Source: Pseudomonas mendocina (lineage in GTDB: Bacteria > Pseudomonadota > Gammaproteobacteria > Pseudomonadales > Pseudomonadaceae). From it: 64,000 nt of DNA. This document shows, one piece after another, positions 17,821 through 36,313 of this stretch (position 1 is its first letter; the number at the start of each line of letters is the position of its first letter). The stretch is from positions 4,402,001-4,466,000 of the forward strand of contig NZ_CP027657.1 in the NCBI RefSeq assembly GCF_003008615.1. The letters are read 5' to 3'. The notes beneath the pieces are model-generated. The model ran no database searches. It worked only from the letters and a program-made list of their open reading frames with translations, and was not told the DNA's origin. Position numbers and translations under genes: made by a program.

Positions 17821-18591
17821 ATGAAAACAGTCATTCTGGCCGGCGGATTGGGCACGCGTATCAGCGAAGAGTCCCACCTGCGGCCCAAGCCGATGATCGA
17901 GATAGGCGGCAAGCCGATCATCTGGCACATCATGAAGATCTACTCCCATCACGGCATCAACGACTTCGTGATCTGCCTGGGCTACAAGGGCTATGTGATC
18001 AAGGAGTATTTCGCCAACTACTTTCTGCACATGTCGGACGTGACCTTCGACATGGCGGAAAACCAGATGCACATTCACAACCGCCATGCCGAACCGTGGC
18101 GCGTGACCCTGGTCGACACGGGGGAGAGCACTGCCACGGGCGGCCGCCTCAAGCGCGTACGTGATTACCTGGGCGACGAGACTTTCTGCCTGACCTACGG
18201 CGACGGCGTCGCTGACATCGACATCCCGCAATTGATCGATTTCCATCGCAGCCACGGCAAGCTGGCAACGGTGACGGCCGTGCAGCCGCCCGGCCGCTAC
18301 GGTGCGCTGGACGTACAGGGGCAGCAGGTGCAGGGATTCCAGGAAAAACCCCAAGGCGACGGTGGCTGGATCAACGGCGGCTTCTTCGTGCTTGAACCGG
18401 GGGTACTCGATTACATCGAGGGTGACGGCACCACCTGGGAATACGAGCCGATGCGCCAACTGTCCGAACAGGGACAACTGATGAGTCACCTGCACCGTGG
18501 CTTCTGGCAACCGATGGACACCTTGCGCGACCGGGTGCTGCTCGAAGAACGCTGGAAGAGCGGCCAGGCGGAGTGGCGTGTATGGCCGTGA
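17821..18591 (+). CDS. rfbF: Glucose-1-phosphate cytidylyltransferase RfbF
   Basis: The 256-residue protein has the nucleotidyltransferase signature [12 protein letters not shown] at the N-terminus, then [13 protein letters not shown]. Later family motifs are [10 protein letters not shown] and W-I-N-G-G-F-F-V. It makes CDP-glucose from CTP and glucose 1-phosphate, the entry step to CDP-3,6-dideoxyhexoses. ATG 17821 is the family start; in-frame codons back to 17734 are not needed. First gene of the accessory island, it overlaps rfbG by 10 bp. This enzyme normally belongs to O-antigen loci, so its place inside a flagellar locus is notable. Confidence 0.95.
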
Positions 18592-19649
18592 GTGCGGCGT
18601 TCTGGGCCGGTCGCCGAGTCCTGTTGACCGGGCATACCGGTTTCAAGGGCGGCTGGCTGGCGCTGTGGCTGCAGGAGCTGGGCGCCGAGGTCTGCGGTTA
18701 TGCCTTGCCGGCGCCTGCTGAGCCGTCGCTCTGGCAGGTCGCCCACCTGGCAGAGCGTGTACCTGGCACCCTGGCCGATATCCGAGACGCTCAGCGCGTT
18801 GCCGAGGCCGTTGCAGCTTTTCGCCCGGAAGTCGTCCTACACCTGGCGGCTCAGCCACTGGTGCGTGAGTCCTACCGTGCACCGGCTGATACCTATGCCA
18901 CCAACGTCATGGGCACGGCCAATTTGCTGGAAGCGCTACGCCGCTGCGACAGCGTACGTGCGGTGTTGGTGGTGACCAGCGACAAGTGCTACGAAAACCG
19001 TGAATGGCTCTGGCCGTACCGCGAAAGTGATGGCCTTGGCGGGCATGATCCTTACAGCAGCAGCAAGGCCTGTGTGGAGTTGCTGTGCGCGTCCTGGCGC
19101 GAGTCTTTCCTGCGTGAATCCGGCATTGCCCTGGCCACGGCCCGGGCCGGTAATGTGATCGGCGGCGGCGACTGGTCTAGCGACCGACTGCTGCCCGACA
19201 TTCTGCGTGCCTGGCAGGCAGGTCAGTCACTGACGCTGCGTTACCCAAAGGCCGTGCGCCCCTGGCAGCACGTACTCGAACCTCTGCACGGCTATCTGCG
19301 TCTTGCGCAGGCACTGGTTGAGCAGGGTGAAGCCGTGGCGTCGGCGTGGAACTTCGGCCCCGATAACGAGGGGCTGGTCAGCGTCGGCGAACTGGTTGAA
19401 CGACTGGCACAGCGCTGGCCAGGCCAGGCGCCCTGGACGGTCGAGGCGAACGGACAACCTCACGAGGCCGGTTTGCTCGCGCTGGATTCCAGCCAGGCAC
19501 GGGCTCGCCTGGGCTGGCGACCACGCTGGACGTTGCAGTTGGCCATCGAACGAACCCTCGACTGGCACCAGGCCTGGCAGGCCGGCGAGGACATGCAGAC
19601 ATTCAGCCGCGCGCAGATAGCGGCCTATCAAGGCGAAACCCATGAGTGA
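18582..19649 (+). CDS. rfbG: CDP-glucose 4,6-dehydratase RfbG
   Basis: The 355-residue extended SDR protein has the NAD-binding [11 protein letters not shown] near the N-terminus, S-D-K-C-Y-E-N, and the catalytic Y-S-S-S-K. The family's [11 protein letters not shown] follows. It converts CDP-glucose to CDP-4-keto-6-deoxyglucose, the product that RfbH uses. ATG 18582 has GGCGGAG about 8 bases upstream; a GTG at 18573 is an alternative. Translational coupling with rfbF and rfbH is indicated by overlaps on both sides. Confidence 0.95.
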
Positions 19650-20964
19650 ACAGACGGCGCAAGCGCTGCGTCGGCAGATTGCCGAGCTGGTGGAGCGTTA
19701 TGCCGCGCTGCAACTGGCACCTGCCGCCTTCGAGGCTGGCCGTGATGCCGTGCCGCCCTCAGGCAAGGTGATCGGAGCCGGTGAGCTACAGAACATGACC
19801 GAGGCGGTGCTTGACGGCTGGTTGACCACCGGCCGCTTCAACCAGGCCTTCGAGAAGCGCCTGGCGCGCTATCTGGGGCGCCGCTGCGTGCTGACCACCA
19901 ACTCCGGCTCCTCGGCCAATTTGCTGGCCTTTTCTGCCTTGACCTCCCCGCGTCTGGGCGACCGGGCGATTCGCAAGGGCGATGAAGTGATCGGCGTTGC
20001 CGCCGGTTTTCCGACCACCGTCAACCCCATCCTGCAGTTCGGTGCGGTGCCGGTGTTCGTCGATATCGAACTGGGCACCTACAACATCGATCCGGCTTTG
20101 ATCGAAGCTGCCATCGGGCCACGTACCAAGGCCATCATGCTCGCCCACACGCTGGGCAACCCATTCAACCTCAAGGTCATTCGTGAGCTCTGTGATCGCT
20201 ACGGCCTGTGGTTGATCGAGGATTGCTGCGACGCCCTCGGCTCGACCTACGAAGGCCGCCAGGTGGGCAGTTTCGGCGATCTCGGTACGCTGAGCTTCTA
20301 CCCCGCGCACCACATCACCATGGGCGAGGGCGGGGCGGTGTTCACTGACTCGCCGCTGCTCAAACGTATCGTCGAGTCGTTCCGCGACTGGGGCCGTGAT
20401 TGCTATTGCGCACCCGGCGAGGACAATACCTGTGGCAAGCGCTTCTGCTGGCAACTGGGTGACCTGCCGGAAGGGTACGACCACAAGTACACCTACTCGC
20501 ACCTGGGCTACAACCTCAAGATCACCGACATGCAGGCCGCCTGCGCCCTGGCGCAGATGGATCGTCTCGATGACTTCATCGCCGCGCGTAAGCGCAATTT
20601 TGCCTGGCTCAGCGAGCGCCTGGCCGGCTGTGCCGAGCAGTTGATTCTACCGCAGGCGACGCCTGGCAGTGATCCGTCTTGGTTCGGCTTCCCACTGACC
20701 CTGCGTGATGGTTGCGGCATCGAACGGGTTGGACTGCTGCGTTATCTGGACGAGCAACGCGTGGGTACGCGCCTGCTGTTCGCTGGCAACCTGACGCGCC
20801 AGCCGTACATGCAGGGTCAGGAGTACCGCGTTTGCGGTGAGCTGACAATGACCGACAAAGCGATGCGTGACACCTTCTGGATTGGCTTGTGGCCGGGGCT
20901 GTCCGAGGATCATCTGGAACATGCGGCGCGCAGCCTGGAAGCTTATGTGCGGAGGCTGCGCTGA
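19642..20964 (+). CDS. rfbH: CDP-4-keto-6-deoxyglucose 3-dehydratase (E1/RfbH type)
   Basis: The 440-residue DegT/DnrJ-fold protein is of the special iron-sulphur E1 kind. The usual PLP-binding lysine is replaced by histidine (H223 in S-F-Y-P-A-H-H-I-T-M-G-E-G-G). The four cluster cysteines keep the known C-X57-C-X1-C-X7-C spacing: C196, C254, C256 and C264. With PMP it removes the C3 hydroxyl of CDP-4-keto-6-deoxyglucose. A partner reductase (E3: RfbI, AscD or DdhD type) normally supplies electrons; none is in this window. The product would be CDP-4-keto-3,6-dideoxyglucose, a possible acceptor for the ThDP enzyme at 24.9 kb. Confidence 0.93.
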   Translation: MSEQTAQALRRQIAELVERYAALQLAPAAFEAGRDAVPPSGKVIGAGELQNMTEAVLDGWLTTGRFNQAFEKRLARYLGRRCVLTTNSGSSANLLAFSALTSPRLGDRAIRKGDEVIGVAAGFPTTVNPILQFGAVPVFVDIELGTYNIDPALIEAAIGPRTKAIMLAHTLGNPFNLKVIRELCDRYGLWLIEDCCDALGSTYEGRQVGSFGDLGTLSFYPAHHITMGEGGAVFTDSPLLKRIVESFRDWGRDCYCAPGEDNTCGKRFCWQLGDLPEGYDHKYTYSHLGYNLKITDMQAACALAQMDRLDDFIAARKRNFAWLSERLAGCAEQLILPQATPGSDPSWFGFPLTLRDGCGIERVGLLRYLDEQRVGTRLLFAGNLTRQPYMQGQEYRVCGELTMTDKAMRDTFWIGLWPGLSEDHLEHAARSLEAYVRRLR

Positions 20965-21656
20965 TGCGCGCCTACGTGCTCTGCGGTGGCTTCGGCACGC
21001 GCCTGCGTAGCGTGACGGATACGCAGAAGGCGCTGGTGCCGGTGCATGGCGAGCCTTTTCTGGCCCGCGTGCTGCGTCAATTGGCGAGGGCAGGCATCAG
21101 TGAGGCCGTACTTTGCGCGTACTACCGCGCCGAGCAGGTCGCTGAACAACTGGCGGCTCTGGCGCAGGATGCCGGACTGCAACTTATGCTGGTGGTCGAA
21201 CACAGCCCGATGGGCACGGGCGGTGCCCTGCTCAATGCGCTGCGTGAGCAACCGCCACAGGGGCGGTATCTGGTGCTCAACGCCGACACCTTCCTCGATG
21301 CCGATGGATACGGACTGATGGGGCAGGGGCAGGGCAATGCACTGCTGGGTGTACGGGTGGATGACCGTAGCCGCTACGGTAGTCTCGAAGTCGACGTCAG
21401 TGGTCGGTTGCAGGCTCTGCTGGAGAAAGGGTGTGAGGGGGCGGGTTTGATCAACGCGGGCGTCTACGCTTTTACCTGCGAAACCTTCGCGAGCGCCGAT
21501 GTGCGTGCGTGCTCGATGGAGCAGGAGCTACTGCCCGAGTTGCTGGCGCGCGAAGCCGTGAACGTCATCGAGTATAGCGGTCGATTCATCGATATCGGCA
21601 CGCCGGAGTCGCTTGACCGATATGCCAATGATTTTCGGATGGAACCTCGATCATGA
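20964..21656 (+). CDS. Sugar-1-phosphate nucleotidyltransferase, HddC-like
   Basis: The 230-residue protein has an N-terminal L-C-G-G-F-G-T-R-L-R-S-V-T-D-T-Q-K-A-L-V-P-V-H-G-E-P-F. The metal-binding region is L-V-L-N-A-D-T-F-L-D, with a late G-L-I-N-A-G-V-Y. This is the family of D-glycero-D-manno-heptose 1-phosphate guanylyltransferase and related enzymes that join a nucleotide to a sugar 1-phosphate. The start ATG overlaps the rfbH stop by one base; the end overlaps the next gene, a CBS-sugar kinase, by 4 bp. Kinase and nucleotidyltransferase together suggest two-step activation of one sugar. The nucleotide and sugar are not certain: GDP-heptose is the family precedent, but gmhA and gmhB are absent here. 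Confidence 0.8.
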   Translation: MRAYVLCGGFGTRLRSVTDTQKALVPVHGEPFLARVLRQLARAGISEAVLCAYYRAEQVAEQLAALAQDAGLQLMLVVEHSPMGTGGALLNALREQPPQGRYLVLNADTFLDADGYGLMGQGQGNALLGVRVDDRSRYGSLEVDVSGRLQALLEKGCEGAGLINAGVYAFTCETFASADVRACSMEQELLPELLAREAVNVIEYSGRFIDIGTPESLDRYANDFRMEPRS

Positions 21657-23017
21657 GTCTGCTCGTGCAAACCCTCAGTATCCGTGAACAGCAGAGCATC
21701 CTCGACGCTGTCGAATGCATCGAGGCCGGCGCCCTGCAGATCGTTTTCGTGGTGGACGAGCACATGCGTTTGCTGGGGGTGGTGACCAACGGTGACGTGC
21801 GTCGCCACTTGCTGCAGGGTGGCAAGACGGACGAGCCAGTGACCGCTTGCATGAATGAGGAGTTTCGTTCGGTGCGCATAGGCGCGCCGCGTGAGGATCT
21901 GCTCAAGGCGTTTGATCTGGGCTGCATCGCTCTACCAGGCCTGGATGAACAGGGCCGTCTGGTGGAGGTGTACACCCGGCAGATGGCTGCCAGCGTCGAG
22001 GTGCCCGTACTGGCCCGTGCCCGTGCGCCCGTGCGCATGAGTTTCTGCGGCGGCGGTGCGGATCTCACCTATTTCTTCATCGATCACTCGGCAGCCGTGC
22101 TCAGTTGCACTGTGGGCCTGTATGCCCATGCCACTCTGATCCCGCGTGACGATAGCCGCATCAGCATCTTCGCAGAAGACCTCGGGCGCGAGGAGCATTA
22201 CAGCTCCCTGGCCGAGTTGCTGGCCGCGCCGGAGAAGAGCCTGCTGGCCACCATCGTTGCGGTGATCAAGCCCAAGTACGGCTTCGACCTTTACCTGCGG
22301 TCGGACTTTCCCGTGGGCTCTGGCCTGGGCGGCTCGTCGGCGGCCACCACCGCAACCATCGCGGTGTTCAACGAGCTGCGCCAGGATCGTTGGAACACCT
22401 ACGAGATCGCCGAACTGGCGTTCCAGGCCGAGCGCCTGTGCTTCGGTATCGCTGGTGGTTGGCAGGATCAGTACGCCTCGGCTTTCGGCGGTTTCAACCT
22501 GATCGAGTTCGAGAACCAGCGCAATCTTGTCCATCCCATTCGCCTGGAAGACTCGATCCGAAATGAGCTGGAGTCCTGCCTGGTCTTGTGCGACACCGGC
22601 ATCTCGCATGACTCCGGGCGCCTGCACGAACTGCAGCGCGAGGAGATCGAGGCCGAGCTGTCGCAAACCGAGCTGCTCAGTGCCAGTGTCACCCTGTGTC
22701 GGCGCATGCACCACTTTCTTATCCGGGGTGAGCTCAAGGCGTTCGGCACTTGCCTGGACGAAGCCTGGCAGTTGAAGAAGCGTTTTTCCTCGGCCATCAG
22801 CGATGGTCGGCTCGATGACATCTATGCAGCCGCAATGGCTGCCGGGGCCTGCGGCGGCAAGCTGCTGGGCGCCGGCGGCGGCGGTTTTTTCCTGTTTTAC
22901 GTCCAGCCCCAGCATCGTCAGCGCGTGGTTAACGCCGTCGGCGCGCTGGGCTGTCAGACCCAGAACTTCCGCTTCGAATCGAGCGGCGTGACCTCATGGC
23001 GAACGAAAATTCAATGA
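21653..23017 (+). CDS. CBS-domain / GHMP sugar kinase fusion (HddA-like)
   Basis: The 454-residue protein is in two parts. Residues about 5-118 are a CBS-domain pair (V-F-V-V-D-E-x-x-R-L-L-G-V-V-T-N-G-D-V-R-R). Residues about 125-454 are a GHMP kinase close to D-glycero-D-manno-heptose 7-phosphate kinase. It has R-A-P-V-R-M-S-F-C-G-G-G-A-D-L, the ATP loop P-V-G-S-G-L-G-G-S-S-A, and the C-terminal K-L-L-G-A-G-G-G-G-F-F-L-F. The kinase would phosphorylate the anomeric position of a sugar. CBS pairs bind adenosine nucleotides and regulate. CBS pairs are known in front of PtmE-type guanylyltransferases in legionaminate clusters; here the pair precedes the kinase and the nucleotidyltransferase is the preceding gene. 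The substrate is unknown. Confidence 0.8.
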   Translation: MSLLVQTLSIREQQSILDAVECIEAGALQIVFVVDEHMRLLGVVTNGDVRRHLLQGGKTDEPVTACMNEEFRSVRIGAPREDLLKAFDLGCIALPGLDEQGRLVEVYTRQMAASVEVPVLARARAPVRMSFCGGGADLTYFFIDHSAAVLSCTVGLYAHATLIPRDDSRISIFAEDLGREEHYSSLAELLAAPEKSLLATIVAVIKPKYGFDLYLRSDFPVGSGLGGSSAATTATIAVFNELRQDRWNTYEIAELAFQAERLCFGIAGGWQDQYASAFGGFNLIEFENQRNLVHPIRLEDSIRNELESCLVLCDTGISHDSGRLHELQREEIEAELSQTELLSASVTLCRRMHHFLIRGELKAFGTCLDEAWQLKKRFSSAISDGRLDDIYAAAMAAGACGGKLLGAGGGGFFLFYVQPQHRQRVVNAVGALGCQTQNFRFESSGVTSWRTKIQ

Positions 23018-24912
23018 CCTCATTTCACATCGACGGCTTCCCGGTTGGCGGCGAGCGCGTCTACGTCATTGCCGAAGTCGGCAACAATCACAACGGCTCG
23101 CTGGAACTGGCGCGACAACTCGTCGATGCAGCCATCGAAGCCGGCGCCGATTGCGTCAAGTTTCAACTGCGTAACCGAGAGGCACTCTACCGGAGCAAGG
23201 CTGATGGCTCTCGTGCCGAAGACCTGGGCGTGGAATACATTCAGGACTTGCTGGACAAGGTGGAACTCAGCCTCGACGAACACCGCGAGGTGCGCGCCTA
23301 TTGCGCGCAGAAGGGCATCACCTACCTGTGTACGCCCTGGGACGAACCCAGTGTCGATGCGCTGGTCAGCTTCGACGTGGCGGCGCTTAAGATCGCCTCG
23401 GCGGATCTGTGCAACCCCTACCTGATCGCCAAGGCCGCGAGCTTGGGCAAGCCGCTGATCCTGTCCAGCGGCATGTCCTTCGAGCATGAGATCGTGCGTG
23501 CCATCGAACAGCTCAAGGCACTCGGCACGCCGTTCGCCCTGCTGCATTGCAACAGCGCCTACCCGGCCCCCGAGGCCGATATCCAGCTCGGTTATCTGCG
23601 TCGCCTGCAGGAGCTGCACGGCCTGATCGGCTATTCCGGCCATGAGCGTGGCGTCGCCATTACCCTGGGCGCAGTGGCGCTGGGTGCCAAGCTGGTGGAA
23701 CGGCACATCACCCTGGATCGGGGTATGGAGGGGCCGGATCATCTGGCCAGTCTGGAGCCGGGCGAGTTCCGTCAACTGGTCGACGGCATTCGTCAGTTGG
23801 AACTGGCATTGCCTTGGCAAGGCCCGGGTCGCCATGCCAGCCAGGGCGAGTTGCTAAACCGCGAGAACCTCGGCAAGAGCGTGATTGCCGCATGTGACAT
23901 CGCCCGTGGCACTGTAATGGACGCGTCGATGCTGCGTATCGCCAGCCCTGGCCAGGGCCTGCCGCCTTACCGTTTGCCGGAGCTGCTGGGCAAGCTGGCC
24001 GGTCGCGATATCGCCCAGGGCGATTTTCTCTTCGATAGTGACCTGAGCGAGCAGATCCAGGAGCAGCGTCATACGTTCGACCTGCCGATCCGCTGGGGTG
24101 TGCCGGTGCGCTATCACGACTTCCTCGACTACCGCCGGCGAATCAACCCGGATCTGTTCGAGTTCCACCTGTCCTACCGCGACCTTAGCCTCCAGCCGCG
24201 GCCGTTTCTCGCTGAGGTCGACTGTTCGCGCCTGGTGGTGCACGCGCCGGAGCTGTTCGAGAACAGCGAGCTGCTGGATCTGGCGTCGAATGATCCTGCC
24301 TATCGCCAACGCTCCATCGACAACCTGCAGCGCGTAGTGGATGCCACCTTGCAAATCGGCGAATTCTTCCCCAATGCTGATGCGCGGCTGATCGTCGCCA
24401 ATATCGGTGGCTTCTCCGCCGACGAGCCGCGCCCGCTGGCCATGCGCCCGGAACTTTATGAGCGCTTCCACGAAGCCTGCCGCCAGGTGGATTTCGCCGG
24501 CACCGAACTGATTCCGCAGAACATGGCGCCGTTCCCCTGGCACTTCGGCGGCCAGCGCCACCAGAACATCTTCATGATGCCCGAGGAGCTGGCCGCCCAG
24601 GCGCGTGATCATGGCTTGCGCCTGTGCCTGGATCTGTCGCACCTACAGATGACCTGCTTCCACTTCGGCCTCGATTTCCAACAGGCACTGGCGCTGCTGC
24701 TGCCGCATTCGGCGCACCTGCACGTGGCCGATGCCAAGGGCACCAATGGCGAAGGCGTGTTGATGGGCACCGGCGATATCGACTGGCGAGCCACCTGGGC
24801 GCAGATTCGTCAGCATCCGCAGGTCAGCTTTATCCCCGAGGTTTGGCAGGGGCACAAGGATCATGGTGCTGGCTTTTGGTCGGCGCTGCAATTTTTGACG
24901 CGGCTCGCTTAA
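23014..24912 (+). CDS. NeuB-type nonulosonate synthase fused to xylose-isomerase-like TIM barrel
   Basis: Residues about 1-275 are a NeuB-type TIM barrel (V-Y-V-I-A-E-V-G-N-N-H-N-G-S; C-V-K-F-Q; S-S-G-M-S; R-H-I-T-L-D-R-G-M-E-G-P-D-H). An SAF domain follows (about 280-345). Enzymes of this kind condense PEP with an N-acyl sugar to give a nonulosonic acid. Residues about 355-632 are a second barrel of the AP-endonuclease-2/xylose-isomerase superfamily, with V-V-H-A-P-E, C-L-D-L-S-H, H-L-H-V-A-D-A and G-T-G-D-I-D-W motifs. The strand where a metal-binding Glu is often found reads V-A-N. I use ATG 23014 (four-base overlap with the kinase); ATG 22996 is also possible. No CMP-sugar synthetase is nearby. 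The substrate is unknown. Confidence 0.8.
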   Translation: MTSFHIDGFPVGGERVYVIAEVGNNHNGSLELARQLVDAAIEAGADCVKFQLRNREALYRSKADGSRAEDLGVEYIQDLLDKVELSLDEHREVRAYCAQKGITYLCTPWDEPSVDALVSFDVAALKIASADLCNPYLIAKAASLGKPLILSSGMSFEHEIVRAIEQLKALGTPFALLHCNSAYPAPEADIQLGYLRRLQELHGLIGYSGHERGVAITLGAVALGAKLVERHITLDRGMEGPDHLASLEPGEFRQLVDGIRQLELALPWQGPGRHASQGELLNRENLGKSVIAACDIARGTVMDASMLRIASPGQGLPPYRLPELLGKLAGRDIAQGDFLFDSDLSEQIQEQRHTFDLPIRWGVPVRYHDFLDYRRRINPDLFEFHLSYRDLSLQPRPFLAEVDCSRLVVHAPELFENSELLDLASNDPAYRQRSIDNLQRVVDATLQIGEFFPNADARLIVANIGGFSADEPRPLAMRPELYERFHEACRQVDFAGTELIPQNMAPFPWHFGGQRHQNIFMMPEELAAQARDHGLRLCLDLSHLQMTCFHFGLDFQQALALLLPHSAHLHVADAKGTNGEGVLMGTGDIDWRATWAQIRQHPQVSFIPEVWQGHKDHGAGFWSALQFLTRLA

Positions 24913-26743: not shown

Positions 26744-27495
26744 CTGGCTGGATCAAGCGGCGCTTGACCGGCTTTTGCTATGGCTATCTGCGTAGCCAGG
26801 GCGACTGGGCGCATTCGCAGGCACAGGAGCTTCGTCACTCGCGGGTGCTACCTTATGCCAGTTACGCTCCCTGGGTGGGCAATGCCGACTTCCTAGATGT
26901 ATATGAGCGGGTTCGTGAGCATACCCTCGTGGACATCTATCGCCTCTACGAACTTTGGCAATTGGCTCGCCAGATGGATCATCTGGAGGGTGCATTCCTT
27001 GAGGTAGGGGTATGGCGGGGCGGGTCGGGTTGCTTGCTCGGACTTGCGAGTCGGCGCCCGGGGCGCCGCCTATTTCTGGCCGATACTTTTGCCGGCGTCG
27101 TGAAGGTCGGTGAGCGTGATACCCGATATAAGGGGGGCGAGCATGCCGATACGACTGTCGATGAAGTCAGGGCATTGCTGTCACGTAATGGTTTGCATGA
27201 GGCGCAGGTGCTTGTGGGGATGTTCCCGGAGCAGAATGCCGAACAGGTGGATGAGCGCATCGCGCTCTTGCATATCGATGTGGATGTCTACGAGTCGGCT
27301 CTCGGTGTCCTGACTTGGGCGCTGCCGCGACTGGTCATGGGGGCTGTGGTCATTTTCGACGACTATGGCTTTCATGGATGTGAAGGCGTAACGCGCTTGG
27401 TCAATGAGTTCGTCTTGGACAATCCGCAGTTCCGCTTCTTTCACAACCTCAACGGTCATGGCGTGCTGGTTCATATCCCAAGAGGTAGTGCCTGA
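26740..27495 (+). CDS. TylF/MycF-like O-methyltransferase
   Basis: The 251-residue protein resembles macrocin O-methyltransferase-type enzymes: F-L-E-V-G-V-W-R-G-G-S for SAM binding, L-A-D-T-F-A-G-V, and L-L-H-I-D-V-D-V-Y-E-S-A, whose acidic residues bind Mg in the family. V-V-I-F-D-D-Y follows. Such enzymes methylate hydroxyls of deoxy sugars. It overlaps the upstream stop by ATGA and the next start by one base, so it is translationally coupled in the island operon. Target sugar unknown. Confidence 0.8.
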   Translation: MTGWIKRRLTGFCYGYLRSQGDWAHSQAQELRHSRVLPYASYAPWVGNADFLDVYERVREHTLVDIYRLYELWQLARQMDHLEGAFLEVGVWRGGSGCLLGLASRRPGRRLFLADTFAGVVKVGERDTRYKGGEHADTTVDEVRALLSRNGLHEAQVLVGMFPEQNAEQVDERIALLHIDVDVYESALGVLTWALPRLVMGAVVIFDDYGFHGCEGVTRLVNEFVLDNPQFRFFHNLNGHGVLVHIPRGSA

Positions 27496-28577: not shown

Positions 28578-29884
28578 GCGGTTATCGATCAGCGGAGCAC
28601 CTAGCTGGACATGAACTGGTGGCTGGCTCCAGTTATAAGTTGCCAATCATGCTGCCTGACGCCGAAACCTGCGAGGTCTGCTTCCGTTTCGATCCTCATG
28701 GAACTATCGACCCAGAGCAGGGGCTTCTCCTACGTGACGGCGCGCGTCTCACGGTGCTGCGTCAGATCGCACGCTACCCGGCGATGTTGCGCTTATTGCA
28801 GGGCGCTGCGATACCCTGTGACTATTCCGTGCTGGAGCGACAGGTTGGCGACGAGGTCTACATTTTTGGCGCTCATCAGGTGGGTGTACTGTTGGCTCGC
28901 CTGTTCCAGGCACGCGGTGGTCGCGTTCGCGCTTTCCTGGATAACGACAAGCGCAAGCACGGCGCGATCATTGAAGGTATTCCCGTGCAGGGCTTCGACC
29001 GTTCAACCATGGCGCCAGGTGCACTCGTGGTCTTGGGGAGTGGGCGTTACAGCGAGACGATTCGCGTTGATCTTGCGACCAAGGGCTGGATCAACGTGAT
29101 GACCATGCAGGCATTTCTGGCTGCGATCGATGCGCCTTATATCACCGAGGACAGTTTTCGGAACTATCACTCGGTGCTATTCAATCAGGCCTCTGCATTT
29201 GTGAGTGCTTTCCTCTGCCTGGAAGACGAGCGCTCGCGCGAAGTGTATGACGGACTTATTCGTATGCGTCTTGAGCTGGACAACGCGGCTGCCTCAATCC
29301 GATCCGATTTCCGACTCGAGTACATCGAGCCCGACTTTATCGAAGCACAGGACATCCGTTTCTATGTCGATGCCGGTGCCTACGATGGCGACACGCTCGC
29401 GCGGTTGGAGTCACGCTTGGGGGCAGCGCAGAATGCTTATTTGTTTGAGCCAGAGCAGCGCGCTTTCGAGGCTTGCCAGCGCAGGTTTGCTGATCGCAAG
29501 GCGGTCAAAGTGTTGCAGGCGGCGATGAGTGAAACGCCGTGCTGGATTCCGGCACCACGCGCCAACAGTTGTGACGTGCTCGGGCAACTGGCTGCCGGCG
29601 ATGTGCAGCCCATGGCGGATGTCGCGGGCTTGCCGTTGGACGAGGTGGCGGTGGGTGCCGTCAGCCTCATCAAGCTCGATATCGAGGGTGCCGAGGGCTC
29701 TGCACTGCGCGGCGCACGTCAGGTGCTCCTGCGTGAGCGACCCAAACTCTGCGTGTGTGCCTATCATCGCAGCGACGATCTGTGGCGGCTGATCGATACG
29801 GTATTGGCTCTACGGGGCGATTATCGGGTGGGTGTTCGACACTACTCGGACATCATCGACGACACCACGCTGTATTTTTATTGA
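28574..29884 (+). CDS. FkbM-family methyltransferase with N-terminal Rossmann-like module (2)
   Basis: The 436-residue protein has a unique ~90-residue head, then a Rossmann-like module (about 93-185: V-Y-I-F-G-A-H-Q-V-G-V-L-L, A-F-L-D-N-D-K-R-K-H-G, G-I-P-V-Q-G). An FkbM methyltransferase domain follows (about 250-430: F-Y-V-D-A-G-A-Y-D-G-D-T, Y-L-F-E-P-E, I-K-L-D-I-E-G-A-E-G-S-A-L-R-G-A). It is a paralogue in plan of the preceding gene, but the two are well diverged. The start overlaps the previous stop (ATGA). It probably methylates another position of the same glycan. Confidence 0.78.
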   Translation: MSGYRSAEHLAGHELVAGSSYKLPIMLPDAETCEVCFRFDPHGTIDPEQGLLLRDGARLTVLRQIARYPAMLRLLQGAAIPCDYSVLERQVGDEVYIFGAHQVGVLLARLFQARGGRVRAFLDNDKRKHGAIIEGIPVQGFDRSTMAPGALVVLGSGRYSETIRVDLATKGWINVMTMQAFLAAIDAPYITEDSFRNYHSVLFNQASAFVSAFLCLEDERSREVYDGLIRMRLELDNAAASIRSDFRLEYIEPDFIEAQDIRFYVDAGAYDGDTLARLESRLGAAQNAYLFEPEQRAFEACQRRFADRKAVKVLQAAMSETPCWIPAPRANSCDVLGQLAAGDVQPMADVAGLPLDEVAVGAVSLIKLDIEGAEGSALRGARQVLLRERPKLCVCAYHRSDDLWRLIDTVLALRGDYRVGVRHYSDIIDDTTLYFY

Positions 29885-29929
29885 GATGCTGTCGCCATGA
29901 GTACACGACAGCCTAGCCAAGGACTAACC

Positions 29930-30607
29930 ATGGATTCCTCCGTGTCGTATCGAGAGCACCCGAGCTACTGGAACGACTTTTACCAGCGAGGTCATGCTGC
30001 TGCACCGCGCCTGCCGTCGCAGTTTGCTGCGTTTGCGCTGGGCGAGATGTTGACCCCCGACTCGCCTATGGGGCAGATCGATGGTGTCATCGAGTTTGGT
30101 TGCGGAAACGGACGCGACAGCCAGTTGTTCGCAGCCCATGGCCTATCTGTCTTGGGTCTTGATGAGTCGATCGAGGCGATTGGGCTCTGCAGGGGGGCAG
30201 GTCTTCCCGGCCATGCCCGTTTTGAGTGTTGTGCAGCGCGTCAGGCTCGGGAGGCTGTAGAGGTATTTGCTGAGCAGCACAGCCGTGTAGCCGTGTATGC
30301 GAGGTTTTTCCTGCACGCGATCAGCGAAGAAGACGAGCACAGCCTTCTGGCGTTATTGCAAGCTACCTTGCCGGAGGGTACGCCACTTTTTCTCGAGTAC
30401 CGCACGACCGCTGATGCGGATCAACACAAGATATTCGGAGAAAGTCACTACAGGCGTTACCTCGATCATCGGGCAACTCTGGCCCGGATTACCGCCGCTG
30501 GCTTCGCCACTGTCTATGAGATTGAAGGGCGGGGGTTCGCCAAGTACCGTGAAGAAGATGCCCTGGTAGGTCGCTGTATCGCGATTCGTAACGCCTCGTT
30601 AGCCTAG
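29930..30607 (+). CDS. Class I SAM-dependent methyltransferase
   Basis: The 225-residue protein has motif I in V-I-E-F-G-C-G-N-G-R-D-S, then V-L-G-L-D-E-S, and a strand F-L-E-Y-R-T. It looks like a small-molecule or sugar-intermediate methyltransferase of the methyltransf_11/25 kind; no closer family is evident. I chose ATG 29930, which has AAGGA six bases upstream; an ATG at 29897 lacks a ribosome site. It lies in the island operon between the second FkbM gene and the LicD-like gene. Confidence 0.72.
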   Translation: MDSSVSYREHPSYWNDFYQRGHAAAPRLPSQFAAFALGEMLTPDSPMGQIDGVIEFGCGNGRDSQLFAAHGLSVLGLDESIEAIGLCRGAGLPGHARFECCAARQAREAVEVFAEQHSRVAVYARFFLHAISEEDEHSLLALLQATLPEGTPLFLEYRTTADADQHKIFGESHYRRYLDHRATLARITAAGFATVYEIEGRGFAKYREEDALVGRCIAIRNASLA

Positions 30608-30619: not shown

Positions 30620-31543
30620 ATGCAGGAACTGAAAGGTAAGAAACTGGTGCTCTTCGGGGCGGGACGCAGCGGTGAAATCTTCGCTGAAAATGCCAAGGGG
30701 CTTGAGGTTCTGGCCTTCGCGGACAATGACGTCAAGAAGCAAGGGCAGCAGCTAATGGGCTTTCCGATCATTGCCCCGGAGCGAATCGCCGAGTCTGGTT
30801 GTGAGGCCATCGTCGTTACGACCGTCTGCCCAACCCAGCGTATCGTCGAGCAACTGACCTCTCTGGGCTTGGGCGACATTCCTCTGATTACCCCCGACAA
30901 GGCAGTGCTCAAGGGGACCCAGAACCATCCCTTCAGCCATCCGTTGACCAAACAGATCGCGCGTGAACTGATCGTTGCCCTTAATGAACTGGCAAGTCGT
31001 GCCGATGTGGATCTTTACCTGGATTACGGAACCTTGCTCGGAGCATTTCGCGAGCAGGACTTTATTGCCTGGGATGACGATATCGACATGTCCGTCAAAG
31101 ACGAGCAGTTGGATGCGCTGCTTGTGCTTGTCCAGAAGGACAAGAGTTGGCTGCCGCAGTATCACGGTGTCGAATGGTCCGTCCAGGTAGTGACAGCAGG
31201 AACTCACCGGCTTGGCGTCTTGATCTCGTTCGATAATGCGCCGGGGGAGCGCTGTGTACTGCCGCTGGAGTTGGCGGTGACGAACCGGGTGGTGCGCGAT
31301 GGCCAATCGGTGATGTCGGGTAAGATGCTTGAGTTCTTTTGTCCTGCGTCATTCTTCGAAGGCCATGACACGGTTGAGTTCTTTGGTCGTCGCTTCAAAA
31401 CCCCAGTCAATCCCACCGGCTATCTGGATTTCATTTACGGCGATTGGCGAAAGCCCAAGCAAAACATGTCGTTCAGTGAGTATCAAGGCATTCGGGAAGT
31501 GCCTCAGGATCAGGTCGAGGAAATCAATTATCAAAAGCTGTAG
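30620..31543 (+). CDS. LicD-family transferase with N-terminal Rossmann-like module
   Basis: The 307-residue protein has an N-terminal module (about 6-95: L-V-L-F-G-A-G-R-S-G-E-I-F, A-F-A-D-N-D-V-K-K-Q-G, G-F-P-I-I-A) of the same kind as the two FkbM proteins. Next is a LicD domain (about 110-300) with L-D-Y-G-T-L-L-G-A-F-R and the acidic W-D-D-D-I-D-M. LicD proteins transfer phosphocholine or similar phospho-groups to glycans. In P. aeruginosa b-type flagellin the glycan carries a phosphate-containing group and the island has a transferase gene, so a phospho-modification of the flagellin glycan is plausible but not shown. GGAGA precedes the ATG. Confidence 0.75.
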   Translation: MQELKGKKLVLFGAGRSGEIFAENAKGLEVLAFADNDVKKQGQQLMGFPIIAPERIAESGCEAIVVTTVCPTQRIVEQLTSLGLGDIPLITPDKAVLKGTQNHPFSHPLTKQIARELIVALNELASRADVDLYLDYGTLLGAFREQDFIAWDDDIDMSVKDEQLDALLVLVQKDKSWLPQYHGVEWSVQVVTAGTHRLGVLISFDNAPGERCVLPLELAVTNRVVRDGQSVMSGKMLEFFCPASFFEGHDTVEFFGRRFKTPVNPTGYLDFIYGDWRKPKQNMSFSEYQGIREVPQDQVEEINYQKL

Positions 31544-31591
31544 GTGTTCCCCGTGACGCATGATCAGCTCTATGAGATGGGGAAATCCGGT

Positions 31592-32629
31592 ATGGACTAT
31601 CAGGGCACTTGTTCGGATTCATCGGCCATTTTCTCTGTGGATAATCTGCCCATACTTCAATCGCTGACTGACGCACTTGAAGGACGTCATCTTCTGGTGA
31701 CCGGAGGAACTGGTTTCTTTGGGCGTTGGTTGTTGGCGCTTTTCCAGACCCTGCAATCGAGAGGGGCTAGGTTTGAGGTCACTGTCGTTTCACGTGACCC
31801 TGAACGCTTTCTCATGCACTGGCCAACGTTTCGCGGCTGTCGCTGGTTGCACTGGGTTGCCAGCGATGTGCGCCTTATTCCCTCCAGTCTGTCCATCGAT
31901 CTGGTAGTGCATGCAGCCGCAGATACCTCGGCAGTTGGCCAGCGTGACTCCCTCGAGTTGTTCGATATCATTACCGAGGGTGCACGGCGCGTTTGTAAAC
32001 TGGCGGTAGAGTGCGGTGCTCGGCGTGTCCTGCTGATCGGCTCCGGTGCTCAGTACGGTTTGATACCTGCCGGCCTCCCGGTGACTGAGGACTTTCTGGG
32101 GGGGTGTGATAGCACTTATGCCGGTAACGCTTATGCGGAAGCTAAACGTGCCCAAGAGGTTCTAGGCTCGATTTATGCAAAAGACTATGGCATCGACGTA
32201 ATTATGGCGCGCTGTTTTGCATTCTCTGGGCCTGGCTTGCCGCTGGATGGGCATTTTGCGATCGGCAACTTTGTGCGAGATGCCCTTTATGCTGATGCCA
32301 TCGTGCTGAACTCCAGTGGTCAGGCAATGCGTAGTTACCTGCACGGTGCTGATCTGGCTGGTTGGTTGCTTACCTTGCTGTTGCATGGAGAAAGTGGTCA
32401 GGCTTACAACGTTGGTTCAGATCATGCGATCAGCATTGCCGATCTAGCCCATCTTGTCGCTGCCAGAATCGCTCCATACAAGCCTGTTTGCATTCTTGGG
32501 CAGGCTAATACGTCTGATCGGTCGTTCTATGTGCCCGATATCAGCCGCGCCCGAGGGCTGGGGCTTGATGTGTGGACAACACTCGATGTCTCTATAGACA
32601 GCATGGCTCATTGGGGGCGGGGCTTCTAG
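31592..32629 (+). CDS. NAD-dependent epimerase/dehydratase (SDR) of nucleotide sugars
   Basis: An extended SDR of about 345 residues. The NAD motif is L-L-V-T-G-G-T-G-F-F-G-R-W-L. The catalytic pair is in Y-A-E-A-K. The late S-Y-L-H-G-A-D-L-A and Y-N-V-G-S motifs are typical of sugar epimerase/reductases such as abequose or tyvelose enzymes. It may be the reductase/epimerase that finishes the CDP-dideoxy or branched sugar, the role of YerF in Yersinia; this is inferred from operon context. ATG 31592 is preferred because GGGGAA lies 8 bases ahead; GTG 31544, ATG 31577 and others are in frame upstream. Last gene before the AT-rich gap. Confidence 0.75.
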   Translation: MDYQGTCSDSSAIFSVDNLPILQSLTDALEGRHLLVTGGTGFFGRWLLALFQTLQSRGARFEVTVVSRDPERFLMHWPTFRGCRWLHWVASDVRLIPSSLSIDLVVHAAADTSAVGQRDSLELFDIITEGARRVCKLAVECGARRVLLIGSGAQYGLIPAGLPVTEDFLGGCDSTYAGNAYAEAKRAQEVLGSIYAKDYGIDVIMARCFAFSGPGLPLDGHFAIGNFVRDALYADAIVLNSSGQAMRSYLHGADLAGWLLTLLLHGESGQAYNVGSDHAISIADLAHLVAARIAPYKPVCILGQANTSDRSFYVPDISRARGLGLDVWTTLDVSIDSMAHWGRGF

Positions 32630-32653: not shown

Positions 32654-32755
32654 GCTCATATGCTGATAGTGAAATCACAGCGAGCTTTATAGGGTGGTCC
32701 GGGCGCAATTGGTGCTTGATTTTTATCGTCATAGCGGTACTTGGGAGTGAAGGCG

Positions 32756-35700
32756 ATGCGCAAACTATTTTCCAGACGGCCCCATCCTTATTATATTTAC
32801 TCATACGATTATCGACGCAACTCGGCAGGGGTTCGGGTTTTACATATGCTGTGTGATGCTTTGAACCGATCAGGGCAAGAAGCATATGTAGTTGCCAGGA
32901 ATATCTCGTCGAAGCTGATTACCCCAATGCTGAGTGATGAGGTGATTGAATATCACAAGGCTCAGGGGATAAAACCCGTTATGGTTTATCCGGAGGTTAT
33001 CGACGGTAATCCCCTGAATGGTGAGACGGTAGTTCGCTATCTTCTGAATAAGCCGGGATTTCTTAAGGGGACTGGTGAGTATGAAGAAAGCGATTTGTTG
33101 TTTGCATTTAAAGAAGCCCTACTACAACCAGGTATGCCTCTTGATCATGTGCTGTATTTGCCAGCAATAGACTTGGAGGTTTTTAAGCTCTCTGACGACC
33201 CTAGTAAGCGTGAGCCGGGGCTAGTATGTTTCTATCAAGGGCGAGAAGGGGCTGCTCATATTGATCAGGCTTTGCTGCCTGAGGGCGCCATCGAGATCAC
33301 ACCTAACTTTCCCGCTACTTGGGAGGAGCTCGCAGATATTTTTCAGCGCTGTGAGTATTTCTATTGTGGGGAAGCTTCGGCCTTGGCGGGTGAGGCTGTT
33401 TTATGTGGCTGTTTGACCGTCATCATGGCTAGCAAGCATGCACCTGGTACAGTGGGGCATCTCCAGAATAGCGGTTTTGGTGTTGCTAAAGATCTCAGCA
33501 TAGAGGAGCTGGCACAGGCCCGTGCCAGCATGCCTAAGTTGAGAGAGTATCAGCTTCGCAAGCAAGAGGAATTCTGGCTTGCGCTGGATCGTTTTATCGA
33601 GATAACCCAGAGGGCCGCTGCCGAGAATCAGGTTCGTCCTGGCCGATATGAATTGAATCGTTGGCTCGCGAAACGATTACCAACATCAGTACAGAACCGT
33701 TTGATAGGTGATTACCTGCAACAGCATGCTGGCGGGCCTTTGATCGGAATTCTGATTCTCGATCTGTCTGGCAGTAGTAAGAAACTTGCAGCGACTATTG
33801 CAAGCCTACGGCTGGAAAAGAACCTTTATGCCACCGTGAATATTGTCGTGTTGTCGGTAAATGACGTGCCGGCTACTTCAGCTCAGGGTAAGTTGCATTT
33901 CATAAAGATCAATGCGCATGAGTACGTGGCAAGACTCAATCAGGTGGTAGAGCAGAGCAGCTTTGATTGGATCATGCTGGTCAACGCAGGAGATGAGTTC
34001 ACGCCGGCTGGCCTGATGATGCTGGCTTTGGAGCTGGTTGCTGCACCGGACTGCCGGGCGGTTTATGGTGATGAATTGCAGCGTTTGCCGAATGGCGATT
34101 TGGGGGGGGCGTTCCGACCGGCTTTCAATTTGGACATGCTGCTCGCATTCCCCACGGGCATGGCCAGCCATTGGTTGATCCGACGTGATGCGTTTCTAGA
34201 GCTTGGTGGTTTCGACCCGGAGTTTGACGATGCACTGGCGTTCGAGCTGCTGGTACGGCTGATCGAAAAGGAAGGGGGGCAGGGTATCGGTCATATCGAT
34301 GAGCCGTTATTGATAACTGACGCTCCTATATTGCGGGATAATTCTCAGGAACGTCTGGTCATTGAACGACACCTGGCGTGGCGTGGGTACCAGGGGACTG
34401 TATCAGCCAAGTTGCCTGGGCGTTACCGAATTAATTATGGTCATCAAGCGCAGCCATTGGTTTCCATCATCATTCCTACCAAGGATCAACTGCCGATACT
34501 CACGCGCTGCGTTGAAAGTTTATTGGAGAAAACCCGCTATCAGCACTACGAAGTGTTGATCGTTGATAACAATAGTGAAACTCCTGAGGCCTGTGACTGG
34601 CTGGCGCAAATAGAGGGTCTTGGGGCGGATAAGGTGAGAGTGCTGCGTTATCCGCATCCATTCAATTTTTCGGCGATCAACAATGCGGCGGCTGCTCAGG
34701 CCAGGGGCGAATATCTGGTGTTGTTGAACAACGATACTGCGATCATTCAGGAGGACTGGTTGGACGCGCTGCTCAATCATGCGCAGCGTCCAGAGGTTGG
34801 CATAGTCGGCTCCAAGTTGCTTTATCCCGATGGCAGTATTCAGCACGCGGGAGTGATACTGGGGCTGCGTGGTCCGGCAGACCACCCTTTCATTGGCGAA
34901 CCTATAGATGCTCCGGGGTATATGCAGCGTTTGCAGGTCGACCAGGGCTACAGTGCGGTTACAGCAGCCTGCCTGATGATTCGCAAATCGATCTACGATC
35001 AGTTGGGGGGGATGGATGAGGAGGCCTTTAAGGTTTCTTACAACGATGTAGACCTGTGCCTGAAAGTTCGCGAGGCCGGTTATCTGATTGTATGGACTCC
35101 TTATTCGATCGTCATGCATGAAGGGAGTGTGAGCCAGACCCATGTCGATACGGCCGCTCACGCCATGAAGCGCAAGCGCTTCATGGCAGAGCAAGATGCG
35201 ATGTATGAGAAGTGGTTATCCGTGCTGGCGAATGACCCTGCCTATAACCGTAACCTTGCTTTGAACGGTAAGGGGTTCGAACTGGAGACGGACAGCAATC
35301 TGACCTGGCGACCATTGACCTGGCGTCCTTTGCCAACGGTCTTGGCCCATCCGGCCGACCCATGGGGTTGTGGAAACTACCGCGTGATTCGTCCTTTCGA
35401 AGCTCTAAGGCGCGAAGGGCTGGTCGATGGAATGATGTCTGATGGACTACTTCAGGTTGTTGATCTGGCTCGCTATGACCCTGACGTAGTGATCCTGCAA
35501 CGGCAAATCGGCGATGAGCGTCAGGAGGCCATGCGACGTATCAAGGCCTTCTCGCGGGCGTTCAAGGTATACGAGTTGGATGACTATCTACCCAACCTGC
35601 CATTGAAAAGCCTCCACCGTGAACATATGCCGAAAGACATTCTCAAGTCGTTGAGGCAGGGGCTGCGTTTTGTAGACCGCTTCGTCGTTTCCACGCAGCC

Positions 35701-36313
35701 GCTGGCGGAAGCCTTTGCAGGGCTGCATGAAGATATCCGTGTGGTCGAGAACCGCTTGCCGGTGGAGTGGTGGAAAGGGCTGTCCAGCCGACGTAGGAGA
35801 GGCCGAAAACCTCGGGTCGGCTGGGCCGGTGGAGTTAGTCATACCGGCGATCTGGATCTGATCGTCGATGTCGTCCGCGAGTTGGCGGGAGAGGTCGAGT
35901 GGGTATTCATGGGCATGTGCCCGGATGCGATCCGGCCCTTCATTACTGAATTTCACGGCGGTGTTGATATCGAGAGCTACCCGGCTGCTCTGGCGAGCCT
36001 GGATCTCGATCTGGCGCTTGCACCGGTAGAGCAGAACCTGTTCAACGAATGTAAAAGCAACCTGCGTCTGCTGGAGTATGGTGCCTGCGGCTTTCCAGTG
36101 ATCTGCAGTGATCTGGTGTGCTATCGCGGTGACCTTCCTGTGACGCGGGTGAAAAACCGCTTCCGCGATTGGGTCGACGCCATCCGCATGCACATCAGTG
36201 ATCTGGATGCGGCCGCCCAGGCCGGTGATCGTCTACGTGAAGCCGTTTATCGTGACTGGATGCTCGAAGGCGAGAACCTGGAGCGCTGGCGCAGGGCGTG
36301 GATGCCGGACTGA
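32756..36313 (+). CDS. fgtA: Large multi-domain glycosyltransferase, FgtA-like (flagellin glycosylation)
   Basis: The ~1185-residue protein has several glycosyltransferase-like parts. About 1-285: an N-terminal part with Y-Y-I-Y-S-Y-D-Y-R-R-N-S-A-G-V-R-V. About 325-560: a GT-A-like part (I-M-L-V-N-A-G-D-E-F; V-Y-G-D-E-L). About 563-820: a clear GT2 domain (V-S-I-I-I-P-T-K-D-Q, V-D-N-N-S-E, L-L-N-N-D-T-A-I-I). About 855-1185: a GT4-like part (P-W-G-C-G-N-Y-R-V, E-L-D-D-Y-L, W-A-G-G-V-S-H-T-G-D). Size, position just upstream of fliC and plan match P. aeruginosa FgtA (PA1091) and P. syringae Fgt1, which glycosylate flagellin. ATG 32756 has GGGAG 8 bases ahead. The 5' part is strongly AT-rich for this genome. 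Confidence 0.85.
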   Translation: MRKLFSRRPHPYYIYSYDYRRNSAGVRVLHMLCDALNRSGQEAYVVARNISSKLITPMLSDEVIEYHKAQGIKPVMVYPEVIDGNPLNGETVVRYLLNKPGFLKGTGEYEESDLLFAFKEALLQPGMPLDHVLYLPAIDLEVFKLSDDPSKREPGLVCFYQGREGAAHIDQALLPEGAIEITPNFPATWEELADIFQRCEYFYCGEASALAGEAVLCGCLTVIMASKHAPGTVGHLQNSGFGVAKDLSIEELAQARASMPKLREYQLRKQEEFWLALDRFIEITQRAAAENQVRPGRYELNRWLAKRLPTSVQNRLIGDYLQQHAGGPLIGILILDLSGSSKKLAATIASLRLEKNLYATVNIVVLSVNDVPATSAQGKLHFIKINAHEYVARLNQVVEQSSFDWIMLVNAGDEFTPAGLMMLALELVAAPDCRAVYGDELQRLPNGDLGGAFRPAFNLDMLLAFPTGMASHWLIRRDAFLELGGFDPEFDDALAFELLVRLIEKEGGQGIGHIDEPLLITDAPILRDNSQERLVIERHLAWRGYQGTVSAKLPGRYRINYGHQAQPLVSIIIPTKDQLPILTRCVESLLEKTRYQHYEVLIVDNNSETPEACDWLAQIEGLGADKVRVLRYPHPFNFSAINNAAAAQARGEYLVLLNNDTAIIQEDWLDALLNHAQRPEVGIVGSKLLYPDGSIQHAGVILGLRGPADHPFIGEPIDAPGYMQRLQVDQGYSAVTAACLMIRKSIYDQLGGMDEEAFKVSYNDVDLCLKVREAGYLIVWTPYSIVMHEGSVSQTHVDTAAHAMKRKRFMAEQDAMYEKWLSVLANDPAYNRNLALNGKGFELETDSNLTWRPLTWRPLPTVLAHPADPWGCGNYRVIRPFEALRREGLVDGMMSDGLLQVVDLARYDPDVVILQRQIGDERQEAMRRIKAFSRAFKVYELDDYLPNLPLKSLHREHMPKDILKSLRQGLRFVDRFVVSTQPLAEAFAGLHEDIRVVENRLPVEWWKGLSSRRRRGRKPRVGWAGGVSHTGDLDLIVDVVRELAGEVEWVFMGMCPDAIRPFITEFHGGVDIESYPAALASLDLDLALAPVEQNLFNECKSNLRLLEYGACGFPVICSDLVCYRGDLPVTRVKNRFRDWVDAIRMHISDLDAAAQAGDRLREAVYRDWMLEGENLERWRRAWMPD

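Follow-up and report, generated by a model that had tools for sequence, protein, structure and literature searches.

Our analysis suggests that an island of 14 genes in the genome of Pseudomonas mendocina makes one nucleotide-activated sugar with a long branch, similar to caryophyllose, which would be placed on flagellin, and that a NeuB protein encoded in the island would supply the donor for a thiamine diphosphate (ThDP) dependent carboligase; we put the probability of this reading, which is built on sequence comparisons, at roughly 60%. The island lies between flgL and fliC in a stretch of 64,000 nucleotides (RefSeq assembly GCF_003008615.1, contig NZ_CP027657.1, positions 4,402,001 to 4,466,000), which we call the window, and the host genome is a single contig of 5.77 Mb. 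Papers are cited here by their PMC numbers, and the letters G and L mark genomes and loci.

In the proposed pathway RfbF, RfbG and RfbH, whose family membership is established, would produce cytidine diphosphate (CDP)-4-keto-3,6-dideoxyglucose. The NeuB fusion would condense phosphoenolpyruvate with an aldose that is not N-acetylated into a free 3-deoxy-2-ulosonic acid, one of the 4-hydroxy-2-oxo acids; the aldose would be supplied via the isomerase-like barrel of the fusion and perhaps also by the kinase and nucleotidyltransferase pair of the island. The ThDP enzyme would decarboxylate the ulosonic acid and attach the acyl anion at C4 of the CDP-keto sugar; the product would be a tertiary alcohol that bears a long polyhydroxylated branch. 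Finally, a short-chain dehydrogenase/reductase (SDR) would reduce the ketone of the branch, the methyltransferases and the LicD-like protein would decorate the product and a glycosyltransferase of 1190 residues would transfer it to flagellin. NeuB-type, DmpG-type and many HpcH-type enzymes yield 2-oxo acids hydroxylated at C4, and much of the ThDP clade could follow the same logic with the donor maker exchanged for another type of NeuB or for an aldolase of the HMGL or HpcH type.

One line of evidence for this reading is the linkage of the ThDP gene and NeuB across the genus. Among 398 surveyed genomes the ThDP gene (E<=1e-100) is present in 29, at an identity of at least 79% in 14 (the host genome included), of 47-50% in 10 and of 34-40% in 5, and all 20 genomes with the NeuB fusion (E<=1e-120) belong to these 29. 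The NeuB Pfam family has 33 matches in the 29 genomes, 28 of them no farther than 2,322 bp from the ThDP gene and five elsewhere, and 28 of the 29 genomes have a NeuB within this distance. Because of this tie, NeuB looks like a part of the ThDP pathway. The linked NeuBs are of three kinds: the NeuB-SAF-AP_endonuc_2 fusion of the window (20 genomes), a NeuB-SAF-cupin fusion with similarity to lyxose isomerase (4 genomes) and a plain NeuB (4 genomes). Pfam confirmed the cupin in L104, one of its four genomes, and the plain type in L053 and L107, two of its four, the rest being assigned by length and similarity. The NeuB-cupin and plain proteins are only 28-29% identical to the NeuB of the window, yet they adjoin the ThDP gene too.

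The gene set is neither due to chance nor peculiar to the window strain, and its core occurs in 20 of the 398 genomes. The set rfbF-G-H-hddC-hddA-neuB-thdp-sdr is conserved in the window, in L103 and in 18 of the 20 Pseudomonas loci that were fetched (with a weak SDR, at 32-34%, in three of these); one of the locus comparisons, which included L103 and the NeuB-cupin islands, was screened with the window genes only. The earlier note on this DNA had proposed the 14 genes as one block to be sought across Pseudomonas. What travels as a block is the core, while methyltransferases, LicD and glycosyltransferase vary between islands, and all 14 window genes find a match in only 4 of the 20 loci, some FkbM proteins at only 28-29%. 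In L037, L038 and L049 the part from rfbF to neuB is 90-97% identical to the window (17821-24912), and the ThDP gene that follows is 80-81% identical, or only 49% in L049; this sharp fall after neuB looks like recombination that replaced the ThDP part and left the donor maker in place.

It could be argued instead that the glycan carries two separate residues, one a nonulosonic acid made by NeuB and incorporated unchanged, the other a sugar from the ThDP branch pathway. Nonulosonic acids, in whose synthesis enzymes of the NeuB family usually act, are found on flagellins of various bacteria (PMC13317340), the kinase and nucleotidyltransferase of the island might activate such an acid in an unusual manner, and in L100 a relative of the NeuB fusion adjoins a NeuA-type gene. 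We consider this explanation unlikely. PF02348, the family of NeuA, is absent from all 14 island genes in the Pfam scan, and on the contig it is found within 100 kb of none of the 28 ThDP-linked NeuBs (the nearest is 113,598 bp away and many contigs are drafts), whereas it lies within 5 kb of all five NeuBs of the same genomes that do not adjoin a ThDP gene (Fisher p 4e-6, kinship ignored). In the host genome the island NeuB is the sole NeuB, and PF02348 has one strong match (213 bits) and two weak ones; a single copy of comparable strength (208-223 bits) occurs in each of the 29 genomes and is presumably KdsB. That three different types of NeuB adjoin the ThDP gene also speaks against two separate residues, as do the properties of the NeuB protein itself.

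With the equivalog models of N-acetylneuraminate and pseudaminic acid synthases the NeuB fusion reaches 301.4 bits (cut-off 399.65) and 214.1 bits (cut-off 340.25) and stays below both cut-offs, while the three scored NeuBs among five NeuA-linked controls each clear one NCBIfam cut-off, that of NeuB or that of PseI. Position 314 (numbering of Neisseria meningitidis NeuB) is Arg in all five controls and is not Arg in any of the 43 aligned NeuBs from ThDP loci, being Ser in the NeuB-AP_endonuc type including the window, Phe, Ile or Met in the NeuB-cupin type and Val or Ile in plain NeuB. This alignment excluded four ordinary-type NeuBs of the 80 loci described below, mostly truncated or misframed (three with a gap and one with Ala at position 314), and the NeuB of L114, which the caller of open reading frames (ORFs) had missed. 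We take Arg314 to be the residue that holds the N-acetyl group of N-acetylmannosamine; the PDB entries 4IPI and 4IPJ are, by their titles, structures of the R314A and R314K mutants. Glu25, Lys53, Gln55, Tyr186, His215 and His236 are retained across the 43 proteins, bar gaps or X in single rows, and the window protein keeps the equivalents of all these and of Asp247, with Asp in place of Glu134. It shares with the nonulosonate synthases NeuB, LegI and PseI the NeuB-SAF fold and several catalytic residues, and differs from them in its additional isomerase-like barrel, the missing Arg314, the Asp at position 134, the missing NeuA partner and the scores under the NCBIfam cut-offs. An ordinary nonulosonate pathway was rejected on the basis of these scores, the loss of Arg314 and the lack of a PF02348 partner near ThDP-linked NeuBs.

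The C-terminal barrel of the fusion, which resembles xylose isomerase, probably functions as an isomerase or epimerase in preparing the aldose, because many of its acidic and His residues are invariant across 32 aligned relatives (28 of them at least 79% identical to that of the window). NCBIfam gave only weak matches for it, to L-ribulose-5-phosphate 3-epimerase and hydroxypyruvate isomerase, and the isolated barrel had no match in PDB at E<=0.01. In the predicted model of the whole fusion (predicted local distance difference test, pLDDT, 79; predicted template modelling score, pTM, 0.55) the NeuB half resembles NeuB folds, and all fold matches came from this half, which swamped the search so that the fold of the barrel was barely probed. 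In L100, a relative from another class of the phylum, a CBS-GHMP kinase, a NeuB-AP_endonuc fusion and a NeuA-type gene follow each other (7426-11555) with no ThDP gene in 20 kb; the pair of kinase and NeuB is therefore not tied to ThDP chemistry.

The ThDP enzyme has the three domains of TPP enzymes, and its catalytic Glu (E52) is invariant in the alignment. Its best PDB match is 8RPH with 374 bits, followed by the best acetolactate synthase with 252 bits; 8RPH is JanthE, the YerE-like enzyme of Janthinobacterium sp. HH01 (PMC12188165). The earlier note expected the enzyme to stand apart from true acetolactate synthases, and this was borne out: the tree joins it to the clade of JanthE (100/99), away from three acetolactate-synthase-like enzymes of the host genome (98/94). 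True acetolactate synthase was rejected as an identity on this tree position and on a TIGR00118 score of 333.5 bits, below the cut-off of 538.35. On its domains, on this grouping and on the rfbFGH acceptor route encoded beside it, the window enzyme agrees with the YerE-like carboligases in the wide sense of PMC12247030. JanthE shares with the window enzyme the clade and is its nearest solved structure; the two differ in a motif, CDG in JanthE and GDG in the window. The nearest named record of the window protein is from Pseudomonas composti CCUG 59231 (now Ectopseudomonas composti), at 99% identity.

The position in the tree also bears on a rival scheme, which we regard as unlikely and in which the ThDP enzyme adds an acetyl group derived from pyruvate to CDP-4-keto-3,6-dideoxyglucose, the SDR reduces it to a yersiniose-type sugar and NeuB acts elsewhere. 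The combination of RfbFGH, ThDP enzyme and SDR does resemble the ddhA-D, yerE and yerF homologs of Pseudomonas WCS417 (PMC4509608), and JanthE accepts pyruvate besides 4-hydroxy-2-oxovalerate (PMC12188165). As a negative control we looked at rfbH: it is found in 29 of 199 genomes of the genus, 19 times in a locus of the window type and 10 times in another kind. None of these 10 other loci has a NeuB nearby (two of the 10 genomes carry one elsewhere), and eight have a ThDP gene, seven of which form a separate clade (100/100), sister to the clade (100/99) of the window enzyme, JanthE and 19 others. The eighth (L256) groups with JanthE and the window enzyme, as a long branch, and the HpcH-type gene of its locus is consistent with this placement. 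One locus of the separate clade, L259, shows, when read by eye, a ferredoxin-like reductase, rfbF, rfbG, rfbH, the ThDP gene and an SDR-like gene in series, which is the set listed for yersiniose in WCS417 (PMC4509608). We infer from this that the seven-row clade stems from clusters of yerE/yerF appearance; its name is ours, as no characterised YerE or ErwE sequence is among the rows of the tree. The window enzyme stands outside this clade and inside its JanthE-containing sister, hence YerE proper is disfavoured, which makes pyruvate a less probable donor and yersiniose a less probable product for the window. Therefore, the YerE-like branch pathway of the earlier note stands as to its parts, RfbFGH, ThDP enzyme and SDR, and is doubtful as to its donor and product. 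The clusters of yerE/yerF appearance differ from the window also in what surrounds them: their ThDP genes belong to the other clade with no NeuB near, YerE uses pyruvate (PMC12247030) and the WCS417 genes serve O-antigen, not a flagellum (PMC4509608).

The proposed donor-maker role of NeuB is consistent with the chemistry of known branched sugars. In contrast to YerE, ErwE prefers functionalised 2-oxo acids, e.g. 4-hydroxy-2-oxopentanoate, and MMAR_2332, a ThDP gene product of Mycobacterium marinum, is similar in this respect (PMC12247030). Deletions of MMAR_2331, MMAR_2332 and MMAR_2333 each accumulate a precursor that is free of caryophyllose, and caryophyllose is 3,6-dideoxy-4-C-[D-altro-1,3,4,5-tetrahydroxyhexyl]-D-xylo-hexopyranose (PMC5706390), a 4-C-branched 3,6-dideoxyhexose with no hydroxyl at C2' of the branch, as we predict for the window. 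In our reading this molecule splits at the branch into a 4-keto-3,6-dideoxyhexose and an acyl unit that derives from a 3-deoxy-2-ulosonic acid; C2' would lack its hydroxyl because it stems from the C3 methylene of the decarboxylated ulosonic acid, which would leave a CH2 there. MMAR_2331 could itself be a NeuB, since the order rfbF-glycosyltransferase-ThDP-NeuB in L239, a relative of M. szulgai (9070-13882), matches MMAR_2333-2332-2331, and if it is, published genetics already backs the scheme. In M. szulgai itself a NeuB-cupin adjoins the ThDP gene (L136).

Beyond this survey of the genus we inspected the best 80 of 580 relatives of the ThDP enzyme in a named genome collection; the 80 come from many phyla. 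A NeuB of one of the three kinds is present in 42 of these loci (AP_endonuc_2 in 4, cupin in 29, plain in 9), an HMGL-type protein in 12, an HpcH-type protein in 4 and a NeuB-cupin cut by the contig end in 1; five further loci with an ordinary or truncated NeuB were left uncounted as such, one of them, L183, being among the 12 of HMGL type. NeuB is adjacent to the ThDP gene in at least 26 of 47 cases and within 4 kb in at least 38, which are lower bounds as some NeuBs were called on the wrong strand, and a NeuA-type gene was seen in one locus of the 80 (L141). The donor labels cluster on the ThDP tree, where they change 20 times, compared with 54.7 times on average when shuffled; this tree has two faulty outgroup rows and many near-copies. 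The only ThDP genome of the survey without a linked NeuB, G247, has a 4-hydroxy-2-oxovalerate aldolase (360.7 bits, cut-off 286) and an acetaldehyde dehydrogenase instead. They adjoin a ThDP protein that is 78.7% identical to JanthE, so that this close relative of JanthE stands beside a DmpG-type aldolase and the window enzyme beside NeuB, and 4-hydroxy-2-oxovalerate may be the natural donor of JanthE. The same locus (L109, 6243-13792) also contains a second, distant ThDP enzyme. Three loci of HpcH type (L187, 11790-14352; L166, 11172-12950; L256, 16034-18638) hold a gene similar to 3-dehydroquinate synthase as well (by Pfam in L187 and by eye in the others) and possibly make carbocyclic branched sugars.

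Generalised, these observations would mean that NeuB synthases which lack the N-acetyl anchor are devoted to making donors for ThDP carboligases, a role in which aldolases of the DmpG and HpcH types can take their place, and that "sialic acid synthase" genes help to build 4-C-branched monosaccharides of about 12-14 carbons, on flagellin in Pseudomonas. The principle would span pseudomonads, clostridia, a mycobacterium and an archaeal bin, and we give it an even chance.

Several observations weigh against our reading. Glu134 is altered in nearly all of the 43 aligned NeuBs (Asp in the NeuB-AP_endonuc and plain types, mostly Ser in NeuB-cupin) and Asp247 is retained only in NeuB-AP_endonuc, whereas the five controls keep both, so that the activity of the ThDP-linked NeuBs is itself something that we infer. 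The fusion in L100, beside a NeuA-type gene and away from any ThDP gene, also has Ser at position 314, hence ThDP coupling is not the only setting in which Arg314 is lost. Our scheme gives the HddC/HddA-like pair no firm place, and the four NeuB-cupin islands of Pseudomonas lack it; the CBS-GHMP kinase and the HddC-like transferase may provide the aldose precursor or another activated sugar, and in the window-type island they might activate the NeuB product, although the NeuB-cupin islands do without them. The linkage of ThDP gene and NeuB could also reflect two sugars of one glycan. Among the 80 loci, which are the best matches and not a fair sample, 21 lack an aldolase as well as any of these NeuB types (7 of the 21 are shorter than 10 kb), the 12 HMGL-type proteins include just two that are near the DmpG of L109 (52%; L183 and L189) while the others are remote, and the HpcH matches are weak (25.9-43.3 bits, cut-off 25); the reactions of the remote HMGL-type and of the HpcH-type proteins are guesses. 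Also, position is what speaks for flagellin as the likely destination of the sugar. As to loci with no special NeuB or aldolase nearby, the ThDP relatives of L131, L139, L142, L147 and L169 cluster in a larger tree, and in L131, L147 and L169 the ThDP reading frame stays open for about 250 codons farther upstream.

The flagellar setting, which the earlier note had proposed, holds beyond the window: flagellar genes are present in the fetched flanks of the ThDP locus in 24 of the 29 genomes (23 of the 28 others and the window). These genes are flgK/flgL, fliC/flaG/fliD or, in four cases, a fleQ that immediately precedes rfbF, and in the stretches read from G115, G155, G050, G193 and G247 no flagellar gene was found. 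Known Pseudomonas flagellin glycosylation islands (a-type, b-type and viosamine) sit between flgL and fliC, and the window island is like them in this site and in its large glycosyltransferase; it differs from them in the 4-C-branched sugar that it is predicted to make. The flagellin glycan of P. syringae pv. tabaci is viosamine-rhamnose-rhamnose (PMC3927599) and that of PAO1 is deoxyhexose-phosphate-N,N-dimethylthreonine (PMC11833859), and no flagellin glycan with a 4-C-branched sugar was found in the literature searched. It is improbable that the sugar belongs to an O-antigen or exopolysaccharide and that the island owes its flagellar neighbours to chance or to regulation: known YerE-like products do reside in lipopolysaccharide (PMC12247030), caryophyllose and erwiniose (the ErwE product) being parts of lipooligosaccharide or lipopolysaccharide, and the island follows fleQ in four genomes, away from the site between flgL and fliC, and has no flagellar neighbour in the stretches read from five, but the fetched flanks hold flagellar genes in 24 of the 29 genomes, the Pfam tables of the 14 genes contain no Wzx/Wzy-type gene and the large GT2 protein recurs in those sister islands that reach fliC. 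The host genome has another pair of Flagellin_N proteins at about 1.98-2.00 Mb, which hints that it has a further flagellar system elsewhere than in the window.

The layout of the island is given in Table 1. Its 14 ORFs (17821-36313) were confirmed where the earlier note had put them, between flgL and fliC; they are co-directional and mostly overlapping or at most 30 bases apart. The flanks, flgK/flgL upstream and fliC/flaG/fliD downstream, carry Flagellin_N domains above the cut-off on both sides. The assignment of RfbF, RfbG and RfbH to the route to CDP-4-keto-3,6-dideoxyglucose in the earlier note is upheld by three scores above the NCBIfam equivalog cut-offs. The other island enzymes match broad families only or score below such cut-offs. 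The features that had been overlooked are the NeuB-SAF-AP_endonuc_2 fusion, the CBS domain of the kinase and the lack of a NeuA (PF02348) gene among the 14. For the GT2 protein the FgtA-like label of the earlier note is tentative, FgtA being a protein of P. aeruginosa. The G+C content drops from about 0.62 to 0.50 across the SDR and glycosyltransferase end, and this dip is the only signal of the composition scan.

Table 1. Genes of the island and its flagellar flanks, in positions of the window.
Feature	Positions	Strand	Basis
flgL, left flank (real start probably an ATG a few codons in)	15914..17620	+	Flagellin_N over cut-off
rfbF, glucose-1-phosphate cytidylyltransferase	17821..18591	+	TIGR02623 477.6 bits, cut-off 300.25
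rfbG, CDP-glucose 4,6-dehydratase	18573..19649	+	TIGR02622 497.6 bits, cut-off 278.45
rfbH, CDP-6-deoxy-4-keto-glucose 3-dehydrase	19642..20964	+	NF011936 734.1 bits, cut-off 423
HddC-like sugar-1-phosphate nucleotidyltransferase	20964..21656	+	PF00483; HddC model 116.8 bits, below cut-off 300
CBS domain and GHMP sugar kinase, HddA-like	21653..23017	+	PF00571, PF00288, PF08544; HddA model 226.9 bits, below cut-off 600
NeuB-SAF-AP_endonuc_2 fusion	22996..24912	+	PF03102, PF08666, PF01261
ThDP-dependent carboligase, JanthE-containing clade	24938..26743	+	PF02776, PF00205, PF02775; best PDB match 8RPH; trees
TylF-type O-methyltransferase; tailoring, varies between islands	26740..27495	+	PF05711
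FkbM-type methyltransferase	27495..28577	+	PF05050
FkbM-type methyltransferase	28574..29884	+	PF05050
Class I methyltransferase	29897..30607	+	PF13489 27.6 bits, cut-off 27
LicD-like protein	30620..31543	+	PF04991 over residues 127-173
Extended SDR, would reduce the ketone of the branch	31544..32629	+	PF01370; nearest PDB sequences are UDP-glucuronate decarboxylases
GT2-containing protein of 1190 residues, proposed flagellin glycosyltransferase	32741..36313	+	PF00535; relatives in sister islands
fliC, right flank and presumed target (true start likely at 36562)	36502..38046	+	Flagellin_N 161.2 bits

Branching by YerE-like enzymes and flagellin glycosylation islands are both already known; what would be new is a synthase of the NeuB family that feeds a ThDP enzyme, and this within a flagellin island. 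We found no earlier description of such a pairing, in a flagellin island or otherwise, in a partial literature search that missed key papers, and the enzyme we looked for is not named in passages of PMC12395582, PMC13354803, PMC12507525, PMC4403928, PMC4703794, PMC9912281 and PMC8036289.

Several close relatives of the window NeuB carry names of sialic acid synthases in the source databases, and our reading, if true, would give a function to genes named in this way. It would also explain the origin of the long polyhydroxylated branches in sugars of the caryophyllose type, and it would let the side chain of a bacterial sugar be guessed from the donor enzyme encoded next to the carboligase. Enzymes of this kind could serve as biocatalysts for the synthesis of tertiary alcohols from polyhydroxylated donors. 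For the genus itself the finding would mean an undescribed class of flagellin glycan in at most 7% of the species that were sampled (29 of 398 with the ThDP gene, with 24 of the 29 beside flagellar genes).

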